A stretch of 64,000 nucleotides of DNA from Gemmatimonadota bacterium (GTDB lineage Bacteria; Gemmatimonadota; Gemmatimonadetes; Gemmatimonadales; GWC2-71-9). Numbering within the stretch: position 1 is the stretch's first letter; each line of letters begins with the position of its first letter. The position numbers and the translations under genes were made by a program. The stretch lies in contig JAOTVV010000007.1 in the NCBI GenBank assembly GCA_029863245.1, positions 1 through 64,000 on the forward strand, in the 5' to 3' direction. Below the pieces are notes generated by a model that was given only the letters and a program-made list of their open reading frames with translations, ran no database searches and had not been told where the DNA came from. Positions 2,845 to 18,328 of this stretch are shown here, piece after piece.

Positions 2845-4533
2845 TCACGAGGCGGGCACGTTGGTGGGTGGTGCCGCTCGACTGAGGAAGACGCCAACGG
2901 CGACGACCGTGACGGCACCGACCACGTTGTGCCAGAGGAACGAAACGGAAGGAGCACCGAAGGTCACGGCCGCCACCGTGCCCATCCCGACCAGCAGTCC
3001 CACAAAGGCGCCTGTCGCGCGCGACCCCGGAATCATCGCGAGCAGGAATACGCCGAGTATTGAGCCATAGAAGAACGACCCGAACCGATTCACGACCTCG
3101 ATGAGCGACCCCAGGGTCGCCGCGTAGACCGCGACCACACAGGCAAACACCCCCCACAAGCCAGTGACCACTTTCGATACCATCAGGTAATGGCCGTCCG
3201 CTTCGCTGGGGCGGAACCAGCGACGATAGAAGTCGATGACGGTCGCCGTGGACAAGGAGTTCAACTCGGCCGCAATGCTCGACATCGCCGCGGCCATTAC
3301 CGCGGCGATGAAGAGGCCGGCCAGTCCGATCGGGAGCTCGTGCAGGACGAACCGCGGGATCACGTAGTTCACGTCTTGCGACGACTCGCCGGTGACGCGC
3401 TCTGCCAGCGCGAGCGCCTCACTGCGCACTACGCGCGTCTCGGCTTCGGTAGCGCGAAAAGCGTCGATCGCCACAGTGGCGGCCATCTGGTCCCCGGAAT
3501 TCCGCGCATCGGCCACGGCCAGTGCGGCAGCATTCTGCGAGCGGAACGCCTCCGCATACTGCGCCTCCAGCGACTCGTACGCCACCGACTCGGCGCTGCG
3601 GACACGCGCTTCATGTGCCGGGTTGAACAGGAGCGGGCTGGGTTGAAAGAGATAGTAGACGAAGACGAGAACACCCACCAACAGCACGAGCCCTTGGAGA
3701 GGGATCTTCCAGTACGCGCTCATGAGGAGTGAGGTCCGAGCCTCGTCTACCGTCCGCGTCGCTAGGTACCGCTGGACTTGGCTCTGATCGGTGCCGAAAT
3801 ACGACAGCATCAAGAAGGTGCCGCCGATCAGTCCCGACCAGAAGGTGTAGGTCCTGTTGAGGTCGAACGAGAAATCGAAGATATCGAGCCGACCGGTGGC
3901 ACCCGCTATCCGAAGTGCATTGTCGGGACTCACCGGCATCTGAACGAGCAAGACGATCACTACGGCGACGAGAGCCACGACGATCAGCACCATCTGCTTG
4001 ACGTCGACCCAGGCCACTGCCTGCACGCCGCCCACCATGGTGTAGAGAACGGTCGGCACGCCGATGAGGGCCACCGACCACACCAAGTCCACACCGAAGA
4101 CGGCCGAGAATACCACGCCAGGAGCGGCCAGAATCGTACCTGCCGACATGCCGCGCGAAAGCAGAAACAGAAAGCTGGTGAGGGAACGAGTCTTGGCGTC
4201 GAACCGTCGCTCGAGGTACTCGTACGCCGTGAACACTTTCGACCCGTGAAGGAACGGCACCAGGGTGACACCGAGGATCACCATCGCCAGCGGCAAGCCG
4301 AAGTAGAACTGGACGAACCGCATGCCGTCCGTCGCGCCCTGGCCGGTGGTTCCGATGAGGGTCACCGCCGAGAGCTGGGTCGCCATGACAGACAGCCCGA
4401 CGACCCACCACGGGAGGCTCCGGTTAGCCAGGAAGTAGCCCTCGAGCCGGTCGGTGCCCTTGGAGCGGCGCAAGCCGTCGACCACGACGTAGAGCAGGTA
4501 GGCGCCGACAATGAGCCAGTTTACCGGATGCAC
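2845..4533 (-). CDS. Sodium:solute symporter (SSS family)
   Basis: 562 residues. An N-terminal SSS core (about 1-300) contains SVMATQLSAVTLIGTTGQGA (TM2), SRGMSAGTILAAPGVV and AWVDVKQMVLIVVA; the last helices follow after residue 395. The start is GTG 4533 with GAGG 4-5 nt upstream. A hydrophilic, Ala/Glu-rich stretch of about 80 residues (about 305-385, with VRSAESVAYESLEAQYAEAF) interrupts the helices before VIPRFVLHELPIGLAGLF and is predicted helical. SSS proteins use the sodium gradient to import sugars, amino acids or organic anions. Substrate cannot be read from sequence. The upstream PIG-L deacetylase suggests uptake of an N-acyl sugar or its product. Confidence 0.85.
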   Translation of the reverse strand: MHPVNWLIVGAYLLYVVVDGLRRSKGTDRLEGYFLANRSLPWWVVGLSVMATQLSAVTLIGTTGQGATDGMRFVQFYFGLPLAMVILGVTLVPFLHGSKVFTAYEYLERRFDAKTRSLTSFLFLLSRGMSAGTILAAPGVVFSAVFGVDLVWSVALIGVPTVLYTMVGGVQAVAWVDVKQMVLIVVALVAVVIVLLVQMPVSPDNALRIAGATGRLDIFDFSFDLNRTYTFWSGLIGGTFLMLSYFGTDQSQVQRYLATRTVDEARTSLLMSAYWKIPLQGLVLLVGVLVFVYYLFQPSPLLFNPAHEARVRSAESVAYESLEAQYAEAFRSQNAAALAVADARNSGDQMAATVAIDAFRATEAETRVVRSEALALAERVTGESSQDVNYVIPRFVLHELPIGLAGLFIAAVMAAAMSSIAAELNSLSTATVIDFYRRWFRPSEADGHYLMVSKVVTGLWGVFACVVAVYAATLGSLIEVVNRFGSFFYGSILGVFLLAMIPGSRATGAFVGLLVGMGTVAAVTFGAPSVSFLWHNVVGAVTVVAVGVFLSRAAPPTNVPAS

Positions 4534-10073: not shown

Positions 10074-11939
10074 ATGGTTGCATCCAGCGCGGCACCCACA
10101 CCGGTGCGCGGCGTGAGCGAACGGGAGGCGCGTCAAGTAGCCGAGGCCGCGCGGGAAACCGAGTGGACGGCACCGAGCTTCGTGAAGGAGCTGTTCAACG
10201 GCCGGCTGCATCTGGAGCTGATCCATCCATTTCCGCGGATTCCCGCCGATGAGTTGGCACGGGCCACACCGTGGCTCGAGAAGCTCGACGCCTTTCTCCG
10301 AGCCAACGTGGATGCGGAGGCAATCGACCGGGACTACAAGATTCCCGAGCACGTCGTCACGGGGCTAATCGACCTGGGATGTCTGGGGATCAAGATCCCG
10401 CAGGAGCATGGGGGCCTGGGCTTTTCACAGGCCGTGTACGGTCGGGCTATCGCGCTTGCCACGAGCTACGAGAGTTCCGTCGGTGTGTTGCTTTCGGCCC
10501 ACCAGTCGATCGGTGTTCCCCAACCGCTCCAGCTGTTCGGCACGCCGGAACAGCAGAAGAAGTACCTCCCCCGGCTGGCCAGTGGCGCGATCAGCGCGTT
10601 CGCGCTCACCGAGCCCGATGTGGGGAGCGACCCGGCACGCATGACGACGACCGCCGTTCCGACGGAGGACGGGAGCGAATACCTCCTCAACGGCGAGAAG
10701 CTGTGGTGCACGAACGGCACGATCGCCGACATCATGGTGGTCATGGCGGCGGTGCCGAACAAGGGCATCACGGCCTTCATCGTGGAGTCGTCGTGGCCCG
10801 GGGTGGAAGTGGCGCACCGGTGTCACTTCATGGGGCTGCACGGCATCGAAAACGCGCATCTTCGCTTCACCGATGTGCGCGTGCCAAAGGACAACGTGCT
10901 GTGGGCCGAAGGACGCGGACTCAAGCTCGCCCTGATCACCTTGAATACCGGCCGTCTCACGATTCCGGCAACGTCGGCTGCGACCGCGAAGGCGTGCCTG
11001 GGGATCGCCAGGCGGTTCAGCCAGAGCCGGATCCAGTGGGGGCACCCCATCGGAAAGCATGACGCCATCGCTCAGAAACTCGGTGCGATGGCCGCCATCA
11101 CGTTCGCCATGGACGCGGTTGCAGAGCTGTCGGCTCTGATGGCCGATCAGCGGAAGTTCGACATTCGGCTGGAAGCCGCCGTTGCGAAGATGTGGAACAG
11201 CGAGCGTGGGTGGGAACTCGTCGACGACACCATGCAGATCCGAAGTGGCCGCGGCTACGAGACCGAGTCGAGCCTCAAGACGCGAGGAGAAGTGCCCGAG
11301 CCAGTCGAGCGACTGATGCGGGATTTCCGCATCAACCTGATCTTCGAGGGCTCGAGCGAGATCATGCGGCTCTTCATCGCGCGAGAGGTCGTCGACGACC
11401 ACTTGAAGGTCGCCGGCGCGATCCTTGACCCGGAGGCCTCGGTCGGCGCGAAGCTCGGCGCCTTCATCCGTGCGGGGTTCTACTACGCTGCGTGGTACCC
11501 GTCCAAGTGGATGGGATGGGGATGGTGGCCCCGCTACGCCGAGTTCGGACCCCTGGCCCGGCATCTGTGCTTCGTGAACCGCACTTCGCGCCGCCTAGCC
11601 CGGGCGCTGTTTCACGCCATCGTGCGGTTCGGGCCCAAGCTCGAACGCCGCCAGGCCGTGCTGTTTCGACTGGTCGACGTCGGCACGGAGCTGTTCGCGA
11701 TGAGCGCGGCATGCACGCGGGCCCAGATGCTGAGGGTCTCTACGTCCCCGGAGGAGCGGGCGCAGAGTGCGACCAGCGCGGCATTGGCTGACGCTTTCTG
11801 TCGGCGTGCACGCCGCGAAATCGACGCCAGGTTCCGCAGCCTGTTCGACAACGACGACGAGAAGACCTACCGGATGGCACAACGCGTGATGGCAAACGAA
11901 ATGCGCTGGCTGGAGCACGGAATCCCGCAACCCGACTGA
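10074..11939 (+). CDS. Acyl-CoA dehydrogenase, long form (VLCAD/ACAD9-like)
   Basis: 621 residues; an FAD flavoenzyme that introduces the C2-C3 double bond in fatty acyl-CoA. The central ACAD domain shows FALTEPDVGSDPARMTTTA and GEKLWCTNGTIADIMVVMA. The catalytic glutamate is Glu425 in LIFEGSSEIMR, and the preceding RSGRGYETESS is typical. About 190 residues beyond the classical core (after 430) form a helical extension, as in very-long-chain enzymes that bind membranes. The start is ATG 10074 with GGAG 11 nt upstream. No electron-transfer flavoprotein genes lie nearby. The downstream gene is unrelated. Confidence 0.92.
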   Translation: MVASSAAPTPVRGVSEREARQVAEAARETEWTAPSFVKELFNGRLHLELIHPFPRIPADELARATPWLEKLDAFLRANVDAEAIDRDYKIPEHVVTGLIDLGCLGIKIPQEHGGLGFSQAVYGRAIALATSYESSVGVLLSAHQSIGVPQPLQLFGTPEQQKKYLPRLASGAISAFALTEPDVGSDPARMTTTAVPTEDGSEYLLNGEKLWCTNGTIADIMVVMAAVPNKGITAFIVESSWPGVEVAHRCHFMGLHGIENAHLRFTDVRVPKDNVLWAEGRGLKLALITLNTGRLTIPATSAATAKACLGIARRFSQSRIQWGHPIGKHDAIAQKLGAMAAITFAMDAVAELSALMADQRKFDIRLEAAVAKMWNSERGWELVDDTMQIRSGRGYETESSLKTRGEVPEPVERLMRDFRINLIFEGSSEIMRLFIAREVVDDHLKVAGAILDPEASVGAKLGAFIRAGFYYAAWYPSKWMGWGWWPRYAEFGPLARHLCFVNRTSRRLARALFHAIVRFGPKLERRQAVLFRLVDVGTELFAMSAACTRAQMLRVSTSPEERAQSATSAALADAFCRRARREIDARFRSLFDNDDEKTYRMAQRVMANEMRWLEHGIPQPD

Positions 11940-12067: not shown

Positions 12068-15000
12068 GTGAATCGGGGCGCACATTTTGCTTCCCTGACC
12101 CTTGCCAGCCAGAACAACGAGGGAATAGTCATCCTGCCGACCGCGCCTGGGAGTCTGCGTCGTCACCGGCAGCTCGGTCGCTCCACCGCTGCCGTGGCCA
12201 TTCTTGCGACGATCTTCGCCGCAAGTTGTGGCGACGATGCAGCCGGCCCGAGCGTGCCACTCACCGGTCACGTGTCCGTCACTCCGGTCTTCGACGCCGC
12301 CTACACCGGCATCGTGCCCATCGCGGCGGCGCGCATCACGCTCCAACGCCCTGGTTCCACAACGTTCGCCGTCGACACGCTCATCGCTATCGCGCCGACC
12401 GCTACCTCGGTCGATCTGGCACTCACCGTCACGATGACGACGGCAACAGAGGAGTTCCTCCTCACGATCCGGCTCCTCGATCCCACCGGTGCCACGGTCT
12501 TCTCGGGCGGACCGGTCACCGTCGTGGCCACAACGAGCCCGAGCAACGTTGTCCCGACCGAGGTGACCTTCCAATACGTGGGCGTCGGATCGAACGCGGC
12601 TGGCGTTCGCATTGTCACCCAGAGCCAGCAGCTCTTCAGCGGCAGCTCGGTTCTGCTCATCGGTGAGGCGTTCGACAGCGCGGGGGTGACCATCCCCAAC
12701 ACCCCCATCCAGTGGGCCTCGCTCGACCTTCAAAGGGCTACCGTCCCCAACCCGGCAACAGGCACGGTGATCGCCGGCGCGCAGCGCGGCGCAGCCAGGA
12801 TCACCGCCACGTTGCTCACGGGTCCAGCCGACACCACCACCGTGGCCGTGCAGCCGCTGCCGACCCAAATCGTGGTGGTGAGCGGCGGTGGGCAGACGGC
12901 GACGATCGGCACCGTGCTAGCCGATTCCGTCGTGCTCGAGGTTCGTGCGGCGGATGGGCTCCCGGTTACTGGAGTGAGCGTCCGGCTCCTCGCATCGGGT
13001 GGCACCGTCTCGCCAGACTCGCTCGGGGTGGATGCCACCGGTCGCGTGGCGTTCGAGTGGACGCTGGGCCTCGCCGCCGGACCGCAGGCGACTTCGGCAA
13101 CCGTTGTGGAGTTCCCGAGCGTGCAGGGCACGGTCACGGCAACCGCGACACCCACGCCCGCAACCGATCTCGCCATCGTGAGCGGGGACGACGAAACGGG
13201 CCCGGTGGCGTCCGTCCTCCCCAACCCCCTCGTCGTGTTGGCGACGGATATCGACGGGAATCCGGCCGCCAACGCGAGCGTGCAGTGGACGGTTACGCTG
13301 AACGACGGCACCGCGAGTCCGCCCGTCAGCGTTACGGACGCCAACGGCCTCGCCGCAACCGCCTGGACGCTGGGAAGTCTGGCCGGGGAGAACGAAGTTG
13401 TGGCAACGCTCATCGGCGGGACGCCCTCCTCCGCCGACTCGAGTGCGCTGCCAAGTCCCGCCGCGCCGAGCGTGACCTTCATTGCCACCGGTGTGCCCGG
13501 TCCGGCCGCAGTATTGGAGCTGGTGAGCGGGAATGCACAAGCCGGAACCGTCGGTGCAGCATTGGGACAGCCCTTGGTGGCTCGCACCACGGACCTGTTC
13601 GGCAATCTGGTGAGCGGGACCGCGGTCGCCTTCGCCACCCCCGACGGCGGCTCGCTCGCGCCATCGGCGGCCACGACGAGCGCAGCCGGCCTCGCCCAGA
13701 GCGCGTGGACACTGGGTACGGTTGCGGGAACGCAGACGGCAACCGCGACTAGCGCCGGGCTCGCCGGCTCACCGCTGCCGTTCACCGCCACCGCAGCGCC
13801 GGGGTCAGAAGCCGCGGTGGCATTCCAAAGCCAGCCCACCAGTACCTCGGTCGGAGCAGCGATTCCCGACTTCGTGGTCGCCGTCGTGGACGGCTTCGGC
13901 AACATCGTGCCGTCGACGACAGCGTCGGTTTCGGTGGCCATCGCCAACAACCCAGGTGGCGGCACGCTGTCCGGCACGACCACGGTATCCGCCATGAGCG
14001 GATTGGCGACGTTCACGGGACTCAGCATCGATCAGCCCGGCGTTGGGTACACGCTCGAAGCCACCATCCTTTCCCTCGTGCCCGAGACGAGCCTCGGCTT
14101 CGATATCACCTCGGCAACCGGCGGCGTGTTCTGGATCAGCCCGGTGGACGGCAACTGGAGCGACGGCGCCAAATGGAGCTCCGGGGCACCTCCGGCCCCA
14201 AGCGACACGGTGTACATCCGGCAGGATGGCAACTACACGGTGACGCTCGACGTGGCAGCAACGGTGAAGGCGCTCGAAATGGGCGGCAGTGTGGGAACGC
14301 AGATCTTTGCTCAGCCCGGCAATACACTCACCGTCGACAGCGCAGCCACGTTCGGCCCGACCGTCGTCACGGATCTGAGCGGTGGCGAGGTCACCGGTGC
14401 CGGCACCGTGGACATCCTGGGCGCCATGAGCTGGAGTGGCGGGACGCTGAGCGGGGCGGGCACGACCCGGGTGGGCCCGGGAGCCACGCTCACAATCACG
14501 GGGGCGGGTGCCAAGTTCCTCGACAGCCGCACCCTGGTAAATCAGGACACGGGGGTGTGGGATGCGGCCGGCACTGGGGCCCTGGTCGTCACCAACGGCG
14601 CCACGCTCCACAACCAGGCGGGCGCGACGCTCACGCTCCAGGCCGACGGGGCCCTGGTCTACAATGGGGGCACGCTCCCCACGCTCCTCAATGACGGGCG
14701 CCTCACCCGCACCACCGGCACCGGGGTGTTCCTGATCAGCACCGCGCTGGTCTCGACCGACAGCATCGGCGTCACCAGCGGCACGCTGCAACTCGGCAAC
14801 GACGGCACCGTCAGTGCTCCCCTCGGCGTGGAGGCGGGAGGCACGCTCGAGTTCACGGGCGGCACCCACGACCTCAGCGGCCCGCTCACCGGCCCGGGCA
14901 ACGTGACCGTGAGCGGCGGGGCGGTGACCGTGGGCGGGGCCTATGCCGTCACCGGCACCACCACGATCAGCGCCGGCACGATGAGCGTGGCCAACGGGGC

Positions 15001-17629
15001 CACGGCCACGGCGACCGATGTGGTGCTGAGCGGGGGCACGCAGGGCGGGCCCGACACGCTGGTCGCGACCACCAGCTTCACCTGGAGCGGCGGGACGCTG
15101 AGCGGGGCGGGCACGACCCGGGTGGGCCCGGGAGCCACGCTCACAATCACGGGGGCGGGTGCCAAGTTCCTCGACAGCCGCACCCTGGTAAATCAGGACA
15201 CGGGGGTGTGGGATGCGGCCGGCACTGGGGCCCTGGTCGTCACCAACGGCGCCACGCTCCACAACCAGGCGGGCGCGACGCTCACGCTCCAGGCCGACGG
15301 GGCCCTGGTCTACAATGGGGGCACGCTCCCCACGCTCCTCAATGACGGGCGCCTCACCCGCACCACCGGCACCGGGGTGTTCCTGATCAGCACCGCGCTG
15401 GTCTCGACCGACAGCATCGGCGTCACCAGCGGCACGCTGCAACTCGGCAACGACGGCACCGTCAGTGCTCCCCTCGGCGTGGAGGCGGGAGGCACGCTCG
15501 AGTTCACGGGCGGCACCCACGACCTCAGCGGCCCGCTCACCGGCCCGGGCAACGTGACCGTGAGCGGCGGGGCGGTGACCGTGGGCGGGGCCTATGCCGT
15601 CACCGGCACCACCACGATCAGCGCCGGCACGATGAGCGTGGCCAACGGGGCCACGGCCACGGCGACCGATGTGGTGCTGAGCGGGGGCACGCAGGGCGGG
15701 CCCGACACGCTGGTCGCGACCACCAGCTTCACCTGGAGCGGCGGGACGCTGAGCGGGGCGGGGACGACCCGGGTGGGCCCGGGGGCCACGCTCACGATCA
15801 CGGGGGCGGGTGCCAAGTTCCTCGACAGCCGCACACTCACCAACCAGGGCACCGGGGTATGGGACGCGGCCGGCACTGGGGCCCTGGTCGTCACCAACGG
15901 CGCCACGCTGCACAACCAGGCGGGCGCGACGCTCACGCTCCAGGCCGACGGGGCCCTGGTCTACAATGGGGGCACGCTCCCCACGCTCCTCAATGACGGG
16001 CGCCTCACCCGCACCACCGGCACCGGGGTGTTCACCATCAGCACGGCGGTCACCAACTCCGACACCGTCGATCTGCTGACGGGTACGCTAGCGCTGGGCT
16101 CGACCGTCAATCATCTCGCCGGTGCGGTGTTGCAGGGTACCGCCACACTCGACGTGACAGCCGTGACCTCGGGACCCTTTGCCGGCGACGTGAGCCCCGG
16201 AACCTCACCGGGCATCCTGTCGATCGTCGGCGATTTCGCGCAGGATCCCGTCTCGACGTACAACATCGAACTGGGTGGAACGCTCCCGGGAACCGGTTAC
16301 GACCAGCTCGACGTCTCCGGCCTCGCGACGCTCACCGGAACCCTTGACGTCACGCTCTTCGGCGGCTTCACGCTCAGCCCGGGCGATCGGTTCGCGATCA
16401 TCGTGGCGGACTCGATCGAGGGGACTTTCGCCACTGTGAATCTGCCGCCCCCACCGGCGAATACGACCATCGACACGCTGTATGCCGAGAATCCGGGCGG
16501 ACCGGATACCCTGTATGTCGTCGTGAGTACGATTCCGCAGCCCCCGGCACAGATCCTCTTCGCGGGCGACTCGGTGGGCGGAGCGTTCGGCATCTTCCGA
16601 TCCGACCCCGACGCCACCAACCGCGTGAACATCACCTCCGAGGGCGCCGACTTCGCCAATCCACGGTGGTCGCCCGACCGGACCCGCATCACGTATGCGG
16701 CCGGCGGCGGTTTTGGCGTGGCCAACCAGCTCCACGTCATTTCGCCCGACGGCACCGAACTGGCCCATCTGACCTCCGCGACCGACACGAGCACGTGGTT
16801 CCCGCGCTACAACCCCACGGGCAGGCATCTGGCGTTCGAGTGCGGCGACCAGTTCACGGAGATCGACGTGTGCGTCGTCCCCAACGTGGATGGCCCCATC
16901 CCCTCGCTGGAAGGAATCGGCGACGGTCAGGGCAAGGTGTTCGTCACGGATTTCGACCGGACGAATCGAAACACCGGCCCGGGTGAGTTCGCCTGGGATC
17001 CCCAGAATCCCGACCGGCTCGCCTTCGTGCGCGATTCGGCGGGCACGAGCCGGATCTACACGTCGCTGTTCGACGGAACCGACGTGCAGCCGCTGTCGCC
17101 GGACTTCATGGATGTCGGAAACGGACCGCTTATCATCATCGGCGGCCTCGACTGGTCACCCGACGGCAGCCTCCTGGTGTTCTCCGCGGCGGATCCCCGG
17201 ACCTTCATTGCCAAGCTGTATACTATTCCGCGCACAGGTGGCGATCCCACGCAGCTCACTTCCGGACCGGATGAGGATGGTGTGCCGCTCTTTTCGCCGG
17301 ATGGCAGCCAGATCTTCTTCGCCCGCAATCTGGCGGCAGGCCAATACTGCTCGCTCGACGGCTGGCGCATCAATGCGGACGGCTCGGGTGAAGTCCAGGT
17401 GACCGACGAAGCCGTATGCGACTTCAATACTGACCTGCTGGGTGCCGACTGGTCGCCCGACGGGACAGAGATCGTGCTCACGGGATTCGACGGACAGGGG
17501 AACCTACTGATTTACGCCATCAAGAGCACGACCACGGTGGCGACCTACCGCGCGGACCGGCGCATCGCCGGTCGCGGCGCTGCAGGAGTATCAGTGGTTC
17601 AGGACATCCAGCCCAGCTGGCGGCCATAG
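12068..17629 (+). CDS. Giant lipoprotein with Ig-like domains, tandem beta-repeats and TolB-like propeller
   Basis: 1,853 residues. A lipobox AASC (Cys54) follows the hydrophobic segment STAAVAILATIFA. Domain order by eye: bacterial Ig-like modules starting near residues 175, 262, 364, 479 and 582; a WxxxxNWSDGAKWSSG-type module near 690; repeats with a 217-residue period from 791 to about 1327; an autotransporter passenger-like segment (VSPGTSPGILSIVGDF, near 1375); and a C-terminal propeller (about 1494-1853) with FANPRWSPD, LDWSPDGSLLVFSA and GADWSPDGTEIVLTG. GTG 12068 is the only in-frame standard start before the lipobox and leaves an unusually long 30-residue N-terminus. No barrel domain follows. 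A cell-surface adhesin or structural role is inference; the propeller is unusual for an adhesin. Confidence 0.8.
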   Translation: MNRGAHFASLTLASQNNEGIVILPTAPGSLRRHRQLGRSTAAVAILATIFAASCGDDAAGPSVPLTGHVSVTPVFDAAYTGIVPIAAARITLQRPGSTTFAVDTLIAIAPTATSVDLALTVTMTTATEEFLLTIRLLDPTGATVFSGGPVTVVATTSPSNVVPTEVTFQYVGVGSNAAGVRIVTQSQQLFSGSSVLLIGEAFDSAGVTIPNTPIQWASLDLQRATVPNPATGTVIAGAQRGAARITATLLTGPADTTTVAVQPLPTQIVVVSGGGQTATIGTVLADSVVLEVRAADGLPVTGVSVRLLASGGTVSPDSLGVDATGRVAFEWTLGLAAGPQATSATVVEFPSVQGTVTATATPTPATDLAIVSGDDETGPVASVLPNPLVVLATDIDGNPAANASVQWTVTLNDGTASPPVSVTDANGLAATAWTLGSLAGENEVVATLIGGTPSSADSSALPSPAAPSVTFIATGVPGPAAVLELVSGNAQAGTVGAALGQPLVARTTDLFGNLVSGTAVAFATPDGGSLAPSAATTSAAGLAQSAWTLGTVAGTQTATATSAGLAGSPLPFTATAAPGSEAAVAFQSQPTSTSVGAAIPDFVVAVVDGFGNIVPSTTASVSVAIANNPGGGTLSGTTTVSAMSGLATFTGLSIDQPGVGYTLEATILSLVPETSLGFDITSATGGVFWISPVDGNWSDGAKWSSGAPPAPSDTVYIRQDGNYTVTLDVAATVKALEMGGSVGTQIFAQPGNTLTVDSAATFGPTVVTDLSGGEVTGAGTVDILGAMSWSGGTLSGAGTTRVGPGATLTITGAGAKFLDSRTLVNQDTGVWDAAGTGALVVTNGATLHNQAGATLTLQADGALVYNGGTLPTLLNDGRLTRTTGTGVFLISTALVSTDSIGVTSGTLQLGNDGTVSAPLGVEAGGTLEFTGGTHDLSGPLTGPGNVTVSGGAVTVGGAYAVTGTTTISAGTMSVANGATATATDVVLSGGTQGGPDTLVATTSFTWSGGTLSGAGTTRVGPGATLTITGAGAKFLDSRTLVNQDTGVWDAAGTGALVVTNGATLHNQAGATLTLQADGALVYNGGTLPTLLNDGRLTRTTGTGVFLISTALVSTDSIGVTSGTLQLGNDGTVSAPLGVEAGGTLEFTGGTHDLSGPLTGPGNVTVSGGAVTVGGAYAVTGTTTISAGTMSVANGATATATDVVLSGGTQGGPDTLVATTSFTWSGGTLSGAGTTRVGPGATLTITGAGAKFLDSRTLTNQGTGVWDAAGTGALVVTNGATLHNQAGATLTLQADGALVYNGGTLPTLLNDGRLTRTTGTGVFTISTAVTNSDTVDLLTGTLALGSTVNHLAGAVLQGTATLDVTAVTSGPFAGDVSPGTSPGILSIVGDFAQDPVSTYNIELGGTLPGTGYDQLDVSGLATLTGTLDVTLFGGFTLSPGDRFAIIVADSIEGTFATVNLPPPPANTTIDTLYAENPGGPDTLYVVVSTIPQPPAQILFAGDSVGGAFGIFRSDPDATNRVNITSEGADFANPRWSPDRTRITYAAGGGFGVANQLHVISPDGTELAHLTSATDTSTWFPRYNPTGRHLAFECGDQFTEIDVCVVPNVDGPIPSLEGIGDGQGKVFVTDFDRTNRNTGPGEFAWDPQNPDRLAFVRDSAGTSRIYTSLFDGTDVQPLSPDFMDVGNGPLIIIGGLDWSPDGSLLVFSAADPRTFIAKLYTIPRTGGDPTQLTSGPDEDGVPLFSPDGSQIFFARNLAAGQYCSLDGWRINADGSGEVQVTDEAVCDFNTDLLGADWSPDGTEIVLTGFDGQGNLLIYAIKSTTTVATYRADRRIAGRGAAGVSVVQDIQPSWRP
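14441..15091 (+). repeat. 651-bp tandem repeat, copy 1
   Basis: In-frame unit of 651 bp (217 codons) inside the giant lipoprotein gene, opening with codons for GGTLSGAGTTRVGPGATLTI. Base-by-base reading against copy 2 finds no difference. Its residues are rich in Gly, Thr, Ala and Val in short beta-strand-like stretches, as in beta-helical passenger domains. Confidence 0.9.
15092..15742 (+). repeat. 651-bp tandem repeat, copy 2
   Basis: Directly follows copy 1 and appears identical at nucleotide level over 651 bp. Identity including silent positions implies a very recent duplication, ongoing gene conversion, or an assembly artefact. Confidence 0.9.
15743..16050 (+). repeat. 651-bp tandem repeat, partial copy 3 (diverged)
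   Basis: The first ~300 bp of the unit occur a third time with scattered changes, for example LTNQGTGVW replacing LVNQDTGVW and a G for C near 15763. Similarity fades after the segment encoding TGTGVF, where the protein moves into STAVTNSDTVDLLTG. Confidence 0.85.
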
Positions 17630-17767: not shown

Positions 17768-18328
17768 ATGCGACGGATCACCCGATTGACCGGCACCGTC
17801 GGCGCGCTGGCGCTGGTGCTCGCAGGGTGCGGAAGCGACGTAGGCACGAACAGCGGCGACCCCCTCACGCAGGCAGAGGCCGCGGAGATCTTCGCACAAC
17901 TGCAAACGGCAGTCGCCGACGCGCTGGGATCGCCGAGCGCACCGGCCACCGTCTCGCCGCCCGAAGTCATGGCGGTCCCGATCCCAACCAGCTCGGCCAC
18001 ATGCCCCGCCGGGGGCTCCGTCAGCGTGTCGGGTAGTGCGGACGAAACGGCGACCGGCATCTCGTTCAGCCTCACGGAGACCGTCAGCAACTGCGGGATC
18101 GTGTACAACACGATCACGTTCACCGTCGACGGCGACCCCCACATCAAGATCAGTGGCGACATCACCATCGGCGGTGATATGCAGGTGTCAGGGACGTACG
18201 ACATGCAGGGTGGATTTCTCTACAGCGCAGACGACGGTCGGGCGGGATCCTGCGCCGTCGACGCGTCGGTCAACTTCACGACGTTCAATATCGGTGGATC
18301 GCTCTGTGGACACAGCCTGACGAACTGA
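17768..18328 (+). CDS. Small lipoprotein of unknown function
   Basis: 186 residues starting at ATG 17768 with GGAGG 6 nt upstream. Lipoprotein signal: RRITRLTGTVGALALVLAGC (Cys20 acylated), followed by GSDVGTNSGDPLTQAEAAEI. The remainder is a predicted beta-rich domain with four cysteines (TCPAGG, SNCGIV, GSCAVD, SLCGHS) that could form two disulfides in the periplasm. I do not recognise a family. It follows the giant lipoprotein by 138 nt and has its own ribosome binding site, so it may be independently expressed. A strong terminator lies 40 nt after its stop. Confidence 0.75.
   Translation: MRRITRLTGTVGALALVLAGCGSDVGTNSGDPLTQAEAAEIFAQLQTAVADALGSPSAPATVSPPEVMAVPIPTSSATCPAGGSVSVSGSADETATGISFSLTETVSNCGIVYNTITFTVDGDPHIKISGDITIGGDMQVSGTYDMQGGFLYSADDGRAGSCAVDASVNFTTFNIGGSLCGHSLTN

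Follow-up and report, generated by a model that had tools for sequence, protein, structure and literature searches.

The large gene at 12068–17629 (+ strand) of the contig described here contains two stretches of DNA that follow one another without a single difference, and it raises the question of whether the protein has recently gained a module or whether the assembly has produced one. The sequence analyzed, referred to as the window, is bases 1–64000 of a 128,207-bp contig, in a genome of 3.68 Mb in 75 contigs. The explanation that fits best, and that we hold to be probable, is that the gene encodes a lipid-anchored protein in which one module of an adjustable-length, all-beta, probably solenoid stalk was recently duplicated.

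Identity and extent of the array

Modules 1 (14441–15091, + strand) and 2 (15092–15742, + strand) each encode 217 amino acids, each consist of two parts, A and B, and are 100% identical in DNA. At an offset of 651 the exact match extends for 674 bp (14438–15111), and the period, exactly 217 codons, keeps the reading frame of the ORF. The preliminary description, made by eye, of two apparently identical 651-bp tandem repeats with this codon period was therefore accurate in both respects. Aside from the array, the 64-kb window contains no exact 20-mer repeat, which excludes chance as the source of the identity. Searches of the genome itself, by DNA and by protein, for dispersed copies matched only the three modules of the array, and so there is no donor cassette elsewhere. 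The GC content of 14441–15742 is 73%, compared to 66% for the window. Minus-strand ORFs that cross the array were set aside as by-products of the 66–73% GC content.

The third module (15743–16375, + strand) had been described as a diverged partial copy. Its DNA is indeed diverged – from 15743 up to ca. 16033 it has 14 differences from copy 2 in 291 nt (95% identity; BLAST extends the similarity to 16048 at 94%), and past ca. 16033 the identity drops abruptly to background, so that the A' part is recognizable in DNA and the second half is not. It is not partial, though. A profile built from the modules of other genomes, with no sequence from the window, scores the three modules at 138, 138 and 81 bits, in register, and finds in the third a complete module at the protein level (aa 1226–1436).

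Age and origin of the duplication

Copies 1 and 2 have no differences at 163 fourfold degenerate sites (95% upper bound 1.8%), and the 95% upper bound on their difference over all 651 sites is 0.46%. Between copies 2 and 3, 8 of 74 fourfold sites differ, and ten of the first 12 differing codons are silent, while the other two are replacements. The contrast at fourfold sites supports the earlier suggestion of a very recent expansion.

The boundaries of the match suggest how the expansion may have taken place. A stretch of 23 bp (14438–14460, also 15089–15111 and 15740–15762, + strand) is exactly common to the three module starts in pairwise comparison. On the 5' side of this stretch it is copy 1 that differs from the other two, and 20 bp into the module it is copy 3 that does so. 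The ancestral array in this genome would probably have had two modules, A-B and A'-B', and unequal recombination between sister chromosomes inside the 23 bp is the proposed route – one crossover between the starts of A and A' would duplicate the first module in frame and give A-B-A-B-A'-B'. Events of this kind, in which an entire domain is duplicated in tandem, are ordinary.

An alternative, unlikely but with some evidence behind it, is that the duplication is older and that ongoing gene conversion has kept the copies identical. Copies 2 and 3 differ mostly in the first 120 bp, with two of the 14 differences beyond 15212 (permutation P ~5e-4), and the longest identical run, 123 bp, is the last stretch before the break (permutation P 0.005; 0.017 for third positions). 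This patchiness is compatible with gene conversion, or with selection on the later part of the copy, and it is a weak sign of the continuing conversion that had been proposed alongside recent expansion. The clustering is modest and was tested only after it had been seen, however, and a single recent crossover accounts for the identity of copies 1 and 2 with fewer events.

Assembly and copy number

The proposed crossover leaves the number of copies to be considered, and here the assembly method matters. We sampled 62 contig ends of this genome, and six pairs of them overlap by exactly 127 bp, one pair being the start of the window's own contig and the end of contig C16. Exact overlaps of this length are characteristic of de Bruijn graph assemblers of the SPAdes type run with k=127, and thus point to such an assembly. 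An exact repeat of 674 bp forms a loop in a k=127 graph, and the number of turns taken through the loop is set by read pairs, by coverage or by default. Because the repeat is a loop, the printed copies are identical by construction, and their perfect identity is in part assembler output. The loop does require words that run from the end of B into a type-1 A, and so at least two type-1 A modules are likely to be real. The figure of two copies should be read as a minimum and not as a count, and the assembler may have smoothed away small differences among them. The warning that this is a place for assembly collapse has thus found strong support in the 127-bp overlaps.

The array may therefore be real but longer, with many near-identical copies collapsed to two and perhaps a few true differences among them lost as bubbles were popped, which we consider to have nearly an even chance of being correct; it fits the preferred explanation and departs from it in number only. 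The 127-bp overlaps mean that repeats longer than k were not resolved by k-mers. In addition, in five related genomes (G106, G091, G084, G015 and G021) a contig end interrupts the homologous gene, either within the stalk or adjacent to it, and the homologue in G019 stops at a 100-N gap. The probability of a contig end falling in a gene this long is ca. 0.10 in G021 and ca. 0.10 in G015, while contig ends in G084, G091 and G106 are so dense that breaks are expected. Against a longer array, the assembly runs through the repeats on a 128-kb contig, and paired reads or loop coverage may have yielded the correct number.

The opposite error, a false duplication, would have arisen if a variant in a mixed-strain sample, with its third module converted to type 1, had closed the graph into a loop, so that no cell had two identical modules plus a third. 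A de Bruijn assembly from short words, with a metagenome as its probable source, could allow this, and we consider it very improbable. The loop needs reads that pass from the end of B into type-1 A from 15112 onward, and hence two such A parts in at least one strain, and the independent young in-frame repeats found in relatives (see below) make a real duplication likely.

Runs of 100 N were found in or beside the homologous genes at 4127–4226 of locus L062 (G083), 6958–7057 of L066 (G019) and 3799–3898 of L073 (G116). These are scaffold gaps, so the three genomes, stored as one contig each, are not closed; the gap in G083 is near the propeller rather than the stalk. In G000, the first 400 bases of contigs C7 and C45 (L085 and L123) match each other in all positions at every shift, consistent with masked N.

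The module family in related genomes

Genomes from the same family as this one, and from the same order, contain homologues of the protein. Of 102 genomes of the family, 10 have the module at E <= 1e-8; of a sample of 298 genomes from the phylum, 7 have it at E <= 1e-12. A profile built solely from other species recovers the 217-aa unit independently. Modules lie head to tail and in register, and their number differs widely – about eight in G025 and in G021, three in G034, two in G015, one in G071 and none in G092, compared to three in this genome. Three species of one related genus have about eight, four to five, and four modules, in homologues of 2576, 2224 and 1960 aa (measured from stop to stop). 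Length variation of the protein had been predicted between cells or strains; it is seen here between species and genera, with module counts from 0 to about eight.

Four of the relatives have near-identical in-frame stalk repeats of their own, with periods that are all multiples of three. G106 has a 597-bp period (99.5% identity over 217 bp), G015 a 636-bp period (up to 98.5%), and G021 periods of 603 bp (94.7%) and 585 bp (94.9–100%). In G034 the periods are 315, 630 and 945 bp (ca. 89–96% identity; ca. 7787–8585 of L071, contig C115). The 315-bp period, or 105 aa, is about half a module. The repeat in G015 lies outside the modules recognized by the profile, which indicates that the tendency to duplicate belongs to the whole stalk.

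Protein architecture

The predicted protein of 1853 aa (start codon uncertain) has a lipobox-like N-terminus, Ig-like domains, a predicted solenoid stalk and a beta-propeller, as assigned from the ORF with Pfam, NCBIfam and a lipobox pattern. A PROSITE PS00013-type lipobox places the predicted lipidated cysteine at aa 54 (12227–12229, + strand), where ...ATIFAAS is followed by CGDDAAGPS. N-termini are present in 15 homologues, of which 11 have the same pattern and four a cysteine preceded by a non-matching residue; in most of the 15 the cysteine is followed by an acidic or GP-type stretch. The lipobox and its cysteine thus support the earlier designation of the protein as a predicted bacterial lipoprotein. 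The protein had also been called a surface protein; its predicted anchor could hold it at the surface or in the periplasm, where TolB-like propellers are also found.

The Ig-like assignment rests on Pfam Big_1 (38 bits, cut-off 35), and the stalk that follows consists of an NWS-type linker plus the modules. The C-terminal region (16508–17629, + strand) matches Pfam PD40 at 45 bits (cut-off 21) and is TolB-like by PD40 and by an NCBIfam similarity far below the cut-off. The protein was rejected as TolB itself, as TIGR02800 gave 57.8 bits over part of the profile, compared to an equivalog cut-off of 343, a resemblance of the propeller only. From its position and strong conservation, the propeller region is a candidate head at the tip of the stalk.

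With this architecture, each additional unit would set the C-terminal propeller head further from the Ig-like domains on the membrane side by extending the spacer between them, and since a repeat corresponds to one entire structural unit, an added module should keep the fold intact. Growth and shrinkage of the array by homologous recombination would then make stalk length differ among cells or strains, as in the Periscope proteins discussed below.

Predicted fold of the module

Pfam searches at E values up to 5 found nothing credible for the module. A search for a known repeat family by way of solved structures gave chance nanobody matches only, and plasmid matches (Bradyrhizobium, Acaryochloris and Calothrix, 27–29% identity) were put down to the general type of repeat. 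In a collection of genome contigs searched for close relatives, the only matches were two distant loci with a short NWS-type motif.

Single-sequence AlphaFold2 gave all-beta models with a regular pattern of strands. In a 371-aa crop, the second half of the module was modeled at a pLDDT of ca. 85–95 and the first half at low pLDDT. A Foldseek comparison of the models with solved structures returned nothing at E <= 0.001, and the best matches were the beta-helices of antigen 43 (E 0.014–0.025). Assignment to the Ag43-type autotransporter beta-helix was rejected, since the best match, to the Ag43 passenger, had an E value of 0.014. On these models, the module is likely to be a beta-solenoid.

Comparison with known stalk proteins

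Periscope proteins have long, highly similar DNA repeats that form surface stalks of variable length, and the number of repeats varies most where these are most identical (PMC8201768). Examples include SasG, Rib, Sgo_0707, CdrA and ShdA (PMC8201768, PMC9704523), and ShdA shows that beta-helical repeats occur among them (PMC9704523). Their repeats are longer than 50 residues and more than 80% identical; here the repeat is 217 aa and modules 1 and 2 are 100% identical. Further points of likeness are the high identity in DNA, the proposed role as a spacer between anchor and head, and the variation in copy number among homologues. The differences are in the anchor, predicted here to be an N-terminal lipid where Periscope proteins have a cell-wall sorting signal or an autotransporter barrel, and in the repeat, here a 217-aa predicted solenoid module with no Pfam match, compared to ca. 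50–165 aa in the Periscope repeats reviewed. Strain-level length variation and a surface location are also features of Periscope proteins, whereas the variation seen here is between species and genera. A Periscope stalk is moreover a linear rod that projects a functional head domain; here the module is modeled as all-beta, half of it with confidence and without a significant match to a solved rod or helix, and the candidate head is the strongly conserved propeller region. The protein may be called Periscope-like, and not a proven member of the class.

Antigen 43, a beta-helix autotransporter passenger, resembles the protein in that it gave the best, non-significant fold matches to the all-beta, helix-like models. 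It differs in that the protein here has no significant structural or sequence match to it, has a lipoprotein signal instead, and yielded no autotransporter barrel. The giant beta-solenoid proteins of Apilactobacillus kunkeei, as presented in the abstract, are likewise very large, with solenoid domains and intragenic recombination (PMC12863079). The abstract gives them as extracellular proteins of lactic acid bacteria, 3,000–8,000 aa in length with an N-terminal solenoid, and includes no exact 217-aa tandem module.

A broader proposal, made tentatively and put at rather less than an even chance, is that an undescribed module of ca. 217 aa, absent from Pfam, builds stalks that are lipid-anchored, adjustable in length and topped with a TolB-like propeller, that young in-frame duplications recur in them, and that short-read truncation has hidden a Periscope-like class in a little-studied lineage. 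Periscope stalks have so far been described mainly in strain collections of host-associated bacteria. If the proposal is correct, this lineage too has length-variable, Periscope-type stalks, built on another scaffold and held by another anchor. What is new here is the module family, its predicted anchor and its lineage; the stalks appear to have been partly hidden by short-read assembly. There is also a practical hazard – short-read genomes break or shorten genes of this family, and neither the protein lengths nor the copy numbers in such assemblies can be relied upon.

Genomic neighborhood and divergence of the propeller region

Directly upstream of the large gene is an acyl-CoA dehydrogenase gene (10074–11939, + strand; identified by Pfam). 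By tblastn against the loci, it is kept as a neighbor in seven related genomes, which identifies the large genes in these genomes as positional orthologues. The downstream aminotransferase is common to G106. Directly downstream of the large gene, at 17768–18328, is a small predicted lipoprotein of ca. 186 aa (MRRITRLTGTVGALALVLAGCGSD...).

Divergence from G092 is uneven along the locus. The propeller region (16508–17629) and its counterpart in G092 (contig C160, L060) have 82% identity in protein and 60% at fourfold sites. The corresponding figures are 68% and 47% for the neighboring acyl-CoA dehydrogenase and 44% and 42% for the N-terminal part of the large protein. The high identity of the propeller may reflect exchange of the head region between lineages by recombination, or it may reflect strong constraint.
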